Shown: piece by piece, positions 60,489-63,291 of the stretch
Position numbering within the stretch: position 1 is the first letter of the stretch
Layout of the letters: each line of letters starts with the position of its first letter
Assembly: GCF_003670115.1 (NCBI RefSeq)
Contig: NZ_QQTY01000001.1
Span: forward strand, 434,001-498,000
Length of the DNA: 64,000 nucleotides
Direction: 5' to 3'
Origin: Natronorubrum halophilum
Lineage (GTDB): Archaea > Halobacteriota > Halobacteria > Halobacteriales > Natrialbaceae
Position numbers and translations under genes: made by a program
Notes under the pieces: generated by a model
The model's database searches: none
What the model was told of the DNA's origin: nothing
Seen by the model: only the letters and a program-made list of their open reading frames with translations

Positions 60489-61556
60489 TCATTCGAGTCG
60501 GTACCGCAACAGCGCCGCAATCCCGCCGAGATTCGAGAGCTGTTGGCCCGGCGGAAACTCGCTCGAGAAGACCGTCACGTCGCCGCCTTTCTGTTCCGTC
60601 GTGCGGACGATCTCGTCGACGTCGAGCGCCCAGTCACCGTCGGGGCCGCGCTCCTTTCGGAGCCGGTCGTCGAGCACGAGCAGCCGTTCGATCGCGCCGA
60701 ACTCGGCGGCCTGTTTGACCTGTTCGGGGCCGTAGGCGGCCTTCGCTCCCTCGGCCATCCGCCGGGTGAGTTCGTCGATGTACTCGGCCTCGCTCTCGAT
60801 CCGCGTCTCCTGCTGGACGTCCGCGACGGCCCCGCGTTTGAGCACCTCGTGGACCCCACGGTCGCCGACGGCCGCGGTATCGACCATCGTGATCTTCTCG
60901 GTGAGTTCGGGCTCGTTCTTCTCGAGGTACTTGTAGGCGTCCTGTTTCGTAAACCCCGGTCCGGCGAGAATAATCGCATCGACGTCTTGGCGTTTGAGGA
61001 CCTTCGAGAGCTCTGCGAACAGCTCCGAGCGCCCGCGGGCGTATTCGCCTTTACCGGTCGTGCCGGTGATCGTCGCCCGCTCTTCGGTGCCGTACTGGGC
61101 GACCGTGTGGACGTGGGCCTGTCCCTCCTCGACGGTCGCGATGGCGACGTCCGGGTTCTCGGTGGCTTCCTCGGCTTCCTCGAGGCGAGCCGTTTGATCG
61201 GGCTTGAACCGTTTCTCGATCGACAGCTCCTCGCGTTCCTCGACGTTCAGCGTGTGGTGAAATCCCAGCTGGTCTTCGCGCGAGCAGGCGACGATTTCGC
61301 CGCCGACCCGCAGGCGATTGGCGAACTTGTGGAACTCGATGTCGTCGACGGCGATGGCGACCCACATGGGTTCGCGCTCGCCGCCCGTATCCCGCATCTG
61401 GTCGTCGTTGCGCTGGATCCGTCGGGTCGTATCGCCCGCGACGCGGTCGCCGGGCTCGAGGACGTACTGCAAGTGCCAGAGGTCGTCGACGCTCTCGGGG
61501 ACGACAGTCACCCGCTCGCGTCCGCCCTCGATCCGCTCCCGGTCTTTGATCTGCAT
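60489..61556 (-). CDS. pelA: mRNA surveillance protein pelota (Dom34)
   Basis: It rescues stalled ribosomes with aEF1A or ABCE1. The 355-residue product has domain 1 (Sm-like, about 1-130) with [26 protein letters not shown], domain 2 and domain 3 (LILD-like region [12 protein letters not shown] and [13 protein letters not shown]). It lacks the GGQ of release factors. It is convergent with the TrmB gene, 26 bases apart. Confidence 0.95.
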
Positions 61557-61611: not shown

Positions 61612-62574
61612 TCAGGCGTGCGCGAGGTAGTTCTCCGAACACCAGACCCACTCGTTGTACGCCGGCACGTGTAGCCCCCACCAGGTGATGCCGTCGCACT
61701 CTTCGGGGCCGTTCATGACTTCCCCCTGCGTTCCCTCCGGGAGGGTCAACACGACATCGTCGTTGAGACAGGGCTGTTCGCGGCCGTTGAGCGCGGTCGT
61801 CGTGACGACGGTGTCGTCCATCTCGAACTTGTCGCCGCCGCCGCCGCCCCCGCCGTTCCTGACGAGGTTTGCAAAGTGGCCCATATCCCAGTCGGGGTAG
61901 GGGCAGGTTCGCCCGCCGTGGGAGAAACTGCTGCAGTCACCGTCCGGCACGTGCGTGTGGCCGATGATCCCGCCGGGTTCGTTCTGAATGCAGGTGTTGC
62001 TCGTGTAGAACTCGAGGGGGATGTCGTGCATGTCGGCGATGCAGCGGACGAGATCCGCCGACGCCTCGTAGCACGCGTCGCTGATGCCGTTGTTGTCGAA
62101 CCATTCGTGTTCGATGCCGATCGACCGGTGGTTGGCGATGTACCGGGCGTGCCAGGCCGCGCGGTCGTGGTGGACGAGTTGATCGACGTGTCCCGGACTC
62201 GGCCCGTCGGTCCAGTCGTAGTTTTTCACGAGGTAGTGAGAGCTCACGCCCGAACTCGAACTGGTCAGCGTGCTCAGCGCGCCCTGATAGGCCCCCGCGG
62301 TCACGTGGATGACGATCCAGTCGATGCCGTAGTCCCGCGAACTGTGATTCGCCGCCTCGACCCATCGGTCCGCGGCGGCACACTCGGTGTGCGACGCTGC
62401 TACCCGACCGGTCTGGGTTCCGAGAATCGTTCCGGTCCCCGCGGCGGCACCGGTCGCTTGGAGGAACTTTCGCCGTTTCCACTGTCCGCTACCGTCCGCC
62501 CGTGTTGTTTCGGACCCGTCGTCCGATTTCGAACCCGACTCCGTCGTGTCACGCCCAATGCAATCAAGACACAT
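61612..62574 (-). CDS. Tat-exported N-acetylmuramoyl-L-alanine amidase-like protein (PGRP/amidase_2)
   Basis: The protein has 320 residues. A twin-arginine signal [10 protein letters not shown] follows ~33 N-terminal residues, then a leader ending [11 protein letters not shown]. The amidase domain (about 70-235) has [11 protein letters not shown] (Zn ligand His), [29 protein letters not shown] (catalytic Glu), and [14 protein letters not shown] (His and Cys/Asp ligands). A Gly-rich linker joins it to a small C-terminal SH3-like domain ([44 protein letters not shown]). Archaea have no murein, so its target must be foreign. The start was set at MCLDCIGR. Confidence 0.88.
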
Positions 62575-62754
62575 GATGTGACATACCACAATACCTGTAA
62601 TAATAGTACGGAACTGTAGCGTAAATATCATATATTCGTCGATCTATTTACTGCCCGGAACCTAAGAATAACGCCGAACGAAGTCCGATTCTGGAGTGGC
62701 GGAGTTGGCACAGTAAGGGGTCAGGTGTATCCTCACTGCGAGCTAAACGGTAGC

Positions 62755-63291
62755 ATGAAACTCGCACACGTTCAGCTCTTCGAAGACTTCGGCACGCGCT
62801 CGCTTGCGGTACATGCGGTTATGGTGCTCGTGTTTGCGAATGCGGTACTCGCGGGGCTGTTCATCGGGGGAGAACTGGGCTTGCTCTCGTTCATCGCGCT
62901 GCTCAACTTCACCGCCGGACTCTGGGTCGCCCACTCGATTCACTCGCTCGGCAACGTCGCAACCGACGACGAGTACAACGGCGTCCTCAACGAGTTGCTG
63001 GATATCGGCACCGACGAGTCCACGGAGGGGCTCGATACCGGTCGATTCGGTCGGCTGCTCGCGCTCATCGCGGCCGTGACGGCGGTGTCCCTGTTGACCT
63101 CCGCACAGATCCTGCCGGGAACGGTGTTTCCGCTCGCCGTCGTCGCCGTCGGCGCTATCGCCGTCGTGACGGCGATCATCGGGTTCCTGATCGCCCTCGG
63201 CGCGTCCTACGACGACTCGGAACGGTACTGGACCGGCGAAGTCGATCAACACCAGCGCGCGGATGCCGACAACCAGCCAGACCAGCGGTAA
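62755..63291 (+). CDS. Haloarchaeal membrane protein of unknown function
   Basis: The protein has 178 residues and four membrane helices: AVHAVMVLVFANAVLAGLFIGG, LGLLSFIALLNFTAGLWVAHSIHSL, LALIAAVTAVSLLTSAQIL and FPLAVVAVGAIAVVTAIIGFLIALG. A soluble loop between helices 2 and 3 reads NVATDDEYNGVLNELLDIG. The tail is charged and Gln-rich (HQRADADNQPDQR). I do not recognise the family. The start was set at MKLAHVQLF. Confidence 0.7.
   Translation: MKLAHVQLFEDFGTRSLAVHAVMVLVFANAVLAGLFIGGELGLLSFIALLNFTAGLWVAHSIHSLGNVATDDEYNGVLNELLDIGTDESTEGLDTGRFGRLLALIAAVTAVSLLTSAQILPGTVFPLAVVAVGAIAVVTAIIGFLIALGASYDDSERYWTGEVDQHQRADADNQPDQR

Follow-up and report, generated by a model that had tools for sequence, protein, structure and literature searches.

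The window analysed here, a stretch of 64,000 nucleotides from Natronorubrum halophilum, carries on its minus strand a gene for a putative amidase, placed between pelA and a gene for a predicted membrane protein (Table 1). The deduced protein begins with MCLDC. An alternative ATG further upstream, at position 62631, would lengthen the reading frame; because the conservation among orthologs starts only at MCLxC, the start at 62574 was preferred. From the N- to the C-terminus the protein consists of a twin-arginine signal, an Amidase_2 domain, a linker of seven consecutive glycines and an SH3 domain, so that the Gly-rich connection between amidase and SH3 part described in the initial annotation was found again. 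The AlphaFold model of the full protein is of moderate confidence, having a mean pLDDT of 69, with most of the amidase core between 70 and 90, and a poorly modelled loop at residues 209–226 that holds Cys224.

Table 1. Features of the amidase gene, its product and the flanking genes in the window
Feature	Residues	Position in the window	Strand	Basis or remark
pelA (Pelota), conserved downstream neighbour		60489..61556	-	context only
Tat-type exported Amidase_2-SH3 protein (predicted), 320 aa and stop	1-320	61612..62574	-	domains, alignment, dN/dS
C-terminal SH3 domain	250-320	61615..61827	-	profile and fold matches; common to other exported haloarchaeal murein hydrolases
Gly7 linker	241-247	61834..61854	-	sequence; pLDDT <50 at 242-247
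Amidase_2 catalytic domain	84-226	61897..62325	-	PF01510; AmpD-type profile and fold matches
Cys224, predicted third zinc ligand	224	61903..61905	-	Cys/Asp ahead of invariant Pro225 in almost every relative shown
His206, predicted zinc ligand	206	61957..61959	-	invariant
Glu155, predicted catalytic acid/base	155	62110..62112	-	invariant; aligns with the AmpD SIGIELEG motif
His90, predicted zinc ligand	90	62305..62307	-	invariant in 32 and 27 relatives
N-terminal region with twin-arginine signal	1-60	62395..62574	-	alignment, TAT models
K33-RRKFLQA twin-arginine stretch	KRRKFL = 33-38	62455-62478	-	sequence
Predicted membrane protein, flanking the amidase gene opposite to pelA, conserved in this genus		62755..63291	+	adjoins pelA directly where the amidase is absent

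The assignment of the catalytic part to the Amidase_2 family, as initially proposed, is confirmed by a score of 73.3 bits (E 3e-20) against PF01510, far above the curated cut-off of 26 and therefore not a chance match. No second Amidase_2 match exists in this genome. Two sets were used to read the conservation of the catalytic site: 32 amidase-SH3 relatives and 27 haloarchaeal amidase domains of greater diversity. The suggested His/Glu/His-Cys layout is borne out, with the two histidines and the glutamate invariant and the cysteine, replaced by Asp in some relatives, directly before an invariant proline. A cysteine as third zinc ligand is known from T7 lysozyme and the peptidoglycan recognition proteins, an aspartate from AmpD-like relatives, and Glu155 presumably takes the position of Glu116 in AmpD. 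When a profile of these haloarchaeal amidase domains was compared with the PDB, AmpD (1.7e-13), AmpDh2, XlyA, AmiD, PlyG and PlyL were found, and Foldseek with the AlphaFold model placed AmpD on top (3.8e-8), followed by PlyL, PlyP100 and staphylococcal amidases. Catalytic domain, zinc and Glu positions are shared with AmpD, AmpDh2 and AmiD, which give the best profile and fold matches; the window protein differs from these enzymes by its predicted export signal, by a third ligand that is Cys instead of Asp and by the SH3 domain. AmpD itself is cytosolic and recycles anhydro-muropeptides. The AmpD equivalog model NF008758 reached only 19.4 bits against a cut-off of 143. In the tree a long stem branch (0.81) leads to the subfamily of the window protein, which shows CPYP where its relatives show CPGP; given both features, the specificity may have shifted in this subfamily.

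For the C-terminal part, Pfam gave no match to the SH3 domain of the window protein alone, which stays below the cut-off of PF08239. An SH3-like domain had nevertheless been suspected there, and three lines of evidence agree with it: the profile matches SH3 domains in the PDB, namely the SH3b domain of the endolysin 4krt (24 bits), 2krs and 2kq8; the tail of the AlphaFold model matches SH3 folds in Foldseek (TM about 0.75 over the target); and Pfam SH3_3 matches 28 out of 45 members of the family described below (E up to 0.1). The Tat signal, also part of the initial annotation, stood up in its motif and not in its scores. Both arginines of RRKFL are near-invariant in the alignment of 32 relatives, but the TAT models gave 13.1 of 22.7 and 15.4 of 16.7 bits for the window protein, both under their cut-offs. 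No lipobox turned up when the 72 SH3-family proteins were scanned with a simple pattern, which makes release more likely than lipid anchoring, and the window amidase is probably a released enzyme.

Seven named genomes, from Natrialba and Natronorubrum, contain full-length orthologs with 83–85% identity. Between the mature parts of these orthologs dN/dS is about 0.05–0.2; judged by this ratio, the gene is under purifying selection. In both genera the amidase gene is found beside or near pelA, with the membrane-protein gene intervening in three Natrialba-type loci. The adjoining pelA and the orthologs in these two genera are in agreement with the archaeal host that had been assumed for this DNA. 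All ten congeneric genomes possess pelA, and three of them have the amidase between it and the membrane-protein gene; the remaining seven have pelA and the membrane-protein gene about 180–230 bases apart, with no amidase in the slot. The gene is therefore dispensable, and the pattern fits an old gene lost repeatedly rather than a newcomer. A functional link between the amidase and pelA was considered and rejected, since the slot is conserved, yet the amidase is missing in most congeners.

For a horizontal origin, raised by the initial annotation, a recent date finds no support: the composition is host-like (GC content 0.646 for the gene and 0.644 for the window), the position is conserved, and the gene groups with other haloarchaeal amidases. 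In the phylogenetic tree 52 haloarchaeal amidase sequences stand opposite six actinobacterial and one phage sequence with a support of 100, the bacterial sampling being narrow and drawn from plasmid and phage records only. The nearest bacterial amidase domains among those searched belong to actinobacterial peptidoglycan recognition/amidase proteins (Nonomuraea, Streptomyces; about 31–39% identity), and, opposite to these, the haloarchaeal sequences all share one side of the tree. A bacterial origin further back in time is plausible. One scan of the genome collection gave matches in haloarchaea only. Phage endolysins resemble the window protein either in an Amidase_2 head (PlyL, PlyG, XlyA) or in an SH3b tail (Psm, 4krt), and they are among its nearest PHROGs matches, which would suit a leftover endolysin or, more generally, a decayed protein that binds peptidoglycan without cutting it. 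We consider this very improbable. The catalytic residues are invariant, the dN/dS ratio is low, and the gene has a conserved place in the chromosome, flanked by cellular genes. Moreover, no full-length relative was found in viral contigs or phages, where endolysins matched weakly and over the amidase domain only; a phage origin was rejected for the same reason. In contrast to the endolysins, the window protein has a predicted export signal and no link to a phage, and its full-length relatives are exclusively haloarchaeal in the collections searched.

Searching with the whole protein gave matches in 51 out of 391 Halobacteria genomes (E up to 1e-5). Many of these span only residues 249–319, in reading frames with other heads: M23 peptidase, SLT lytic transglycosylase, glucosaminidase, and combinations thereof. 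With a profile of the SH3 domain, the family was detected in 46 of the 391 genomes (about 12%). After removal of two truncated duplicates it comprises 72 proteins, for which the heads were determined by Pfam on representatives and then assigned to the remainder via sequence similarity. An amidase is the only head in 34, an M23 peptidase in 20, an SLT domain in six and a glucosaminidase in two; amidase plus glucosaminidase occurs in three, SLT plus M23 and glucosaminidase plus M23 in one each. A recognised murein-hydrolase domain is thus present in 67 of the 72 proteins. The rest are two with an unassigned head, one with GH18 and two without a recognised head. The active-site motifs (HxxxD for M23, Glu for SLT and for glucosaminidase) are visible in most proteins of the respective types, and 69 of the 72 carry a twin-arginine motif close to the N-terminus. 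Outside Halobacteria, a wider sample of the phylum yielded three weak matches to the SH3 domain, and none was found in plasmids or phages beyond Halocatena. Most of the SH3 domains scanned by Pfam score below the SH3_3 cut-off.

Two or more different kinds of these proteins coexist in 17 out of the 46 genomes, three or more in seven. Some are encoded in tandem: SLT-SH3, SH3-M23 and SH3-amidase in L043; glucosaminidase-SH3, SH3-M23 and SH3-amidase in L048; and the pair SLT-SH3 and SH3-M23 in L045 and L143. On a plasmid of Halocatena salina the record annotates the members of such a pair as lytic transglycosylase and M23 peptidase. The genome of the window has three members of the family. Besides the amidase there is a second murein hydrolase, a Tat-type SH3-M23 peptidase on contig 3 (L041, 4305-5081), and on contig 2 an exported SH3 protein (L040, 4055-5152; SH3 part 262474-262689) whose C-terminal domain spans about 140 amino acids. 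In 125 genomes of the family Natrialbaceae the only other copy of this domain is in L042, where it is 83% identical. Pfam, NCBIfam, PHROGs and the PDB gave nothing convincing for it, and its AlphaFold model is poor (pLDDT 40); a SleB-like head, proposed by eye, was rejected as Pfam Hydrolase_2 gave no match. Possibly the domain is a new murein-cutting head.

Several further proteins deserve mention. A haloarchaeal protein of 871 amino acids (L060, 2202-4814) has an alpha/beta hydrolase-like (DUF900) part followed by the order SH3-SH3-amidase-SH3-SH3. Another one (L061, 594-2294) has a Tat signal and, behind a GH18 domain, two SH3 domains that belong to this family; it could be a chitinase or a murein glucosaminidase. 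Two near-identical amidases reside in one genome (L074, 2201-2848; L075, 2321-3007), the former on the largest contig beside an SH3-M23 gene, the latter on a contig of 239,549 bases, a length equal to that of a Halorussus vallis plasmid; this suggests a recent movement between replicons. Finally, in L065 (1957-3087), L063 and L064 a haloarchaeal Amidase_2 domain is joined to tandem PG_binding_1, a targeting module parallel to the SH3 domain, as in Woldo.

Taken alone, a single archaeal Amidase_2 domain could have drifted to another polymer. The strongest argument for peptidoglycan as the probable target of the SH3-bearing enzymes is that one SH3 domain is fused in haloarchaea to four unrelated folds with little in common beyond this substrate. 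The claim that the enzyme acts on bacterial walls gains support from the same fusions. One counter-example to a family devoted to murein only is the member with the GH18 head, which may act on chitin. Altogether, there is good support for reading the window protein as a secreted peptidoglycan amidase aimed at bacterial walls, and we think it very probable that the best explanation of the whole is an exported zinc amidase with a wall-binding SH3 domain, which belongs to a set of murein-cutting enzymes sharing this domain. According to this model, a zinc-dependent N-acetylmuramoyl-L-alanine amidase would fold in the cytoplasm, be exported by the Tat pathway and be released into the brine. There its SH3 domain would bind to a bacterial wall, and the catalytic domain would sever the stem peptide from muramic acid. 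The amidase, M23 endopeptidase, lytic transglycosylase and glucosaminidase of the set would together attack glycan, amide and peptide bonds. Enzymatic activity, peptidoglycan substrate, SH3 binding and cooperation are all deduced.

The enzyme might instead act on a polymer of the archaeon itself or of its kin, such as poly-gamma-glutamate, a glutaminyl glycan or the S-layer glycan, and serve the turnover of envelope or capsule. The long stem branch of the subfamily leaves room for a changed substrate, and L-poly-gamma-glutamate is secreted by Natrialba aegyptiaca (PMC4187202), a genus in which close orthologs of the amidase exist. We regard this as unlikely, since haloarchaea combine the SH3 domain of the amidase with four folds that are unrelated to one another and each known for murein, and the gene is lacking in seven out of ten congeneric genomes. 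We know of no haloarchaeal polymer that offers bonds for all four catalytic folds.

If bacterial peptidoglycan is the substrate, its cleavage may serve antagonism or nutrition, the two uses offered in the initial annotation, and export, a wall-directed SH3 domain and murein-specific heads would fit both. Digestion of the walls of dead or living bacteria mainly for amino sugars and peptides, and not for killing competitors, is a special case of the preferred reading, so that its probability is contained in, and overlaps with, that of the whole; we hold it to be possible but somewhat doubtful. Multi-enzyme sets that cut every class of bond would suit such a full digestion, but a killing cocktail would look the same, and the parallel enzymes Woldo and Danwoldo do kill (PMC12352652). 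The patchy distribution together with this published killing lets us lean towards antagonism, while the sets cutting several bonds suit feeding as well.

Archaeal peptidoglycan hydrolases that attack bacteria, to which the initial annotation had referred, are indeed documented. According to Strock et al. (2025, PMC12352652), about 5% of archaeal genomes encode peptidoglycan hydrolases. Two such enzymes of Halogranum salarium B-1, Woldo (M23, PG_binding_1) and Danwoldo (glucosaminidase, PG_binding_1), kill Halalkalibacterium halodurans. The window protein resembles these two as a predicted haloarchaeal secreted murein hydrolase with patchy distribution (three out of ten congeners at one slot, 51 out of 391 Halobacteria matched), a trait also described by Strock et al.; Woldo has a Tat signal like the one predicted here, and in both cases one binding module is common to different catalytic types within a genome (two types in Halogranum). 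Whereas those enzymes carry an M23 or glucosaminidase head and two PG_binding_1 domains, the window protein has an Amidase_2 head and a single, diverged SH3 domain, and its genome lacks PG_binding_1. Their definition asks for a catalytic domain in Pfam that is known to cut peptidoglycan and, in addition, for a binding domain in Pfam. The window protein has the former, but reaches the latter only through SH3 homology and not by score. It is built like a modular archaeal hydrolase, yet would probably not count under this rule. Since most of the SH3 domains scanned in this family lie under the Pfam cut-off, such proteins probably escaped the survey, subject to the threshold that it applied. The finding is cited in a later paper, which does not extend it to the SH3 family (PMC12893001), and our literature search found nothing on haloarchaeal Amidase_2 or SH3b proteins beyond Strock et al.

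The window enzyme thus extends a kind already published in 2025, and the SH3-tagged multi-enzyme set is the main extension. It is conceivable, though we would put it at not quite an even chance, that there is a dedicated and previously undescribed haloarchaeal lytic system, in which the SH3 family would be the common targeting tag of at least four catalytic folds, in single or tandem copies, exported together via Tat and directed in concert against a single kind of bacterial wall. To our knowledge, the host haloarchaeon has no bacterial-type cell wall and hence no murein; archaea of this kind can encode murein hydrolases with no need for immunity. The occurrence of the SH3 tag with different catalytic heads in 46 out of 391 genomes suggests that the Pfam-based count underestimates both the frequency and the sophistication with which archaea attack the bacteria of brines or feed on them, and the family may serve as a candidate list of probably salt-active lytic enzymes.
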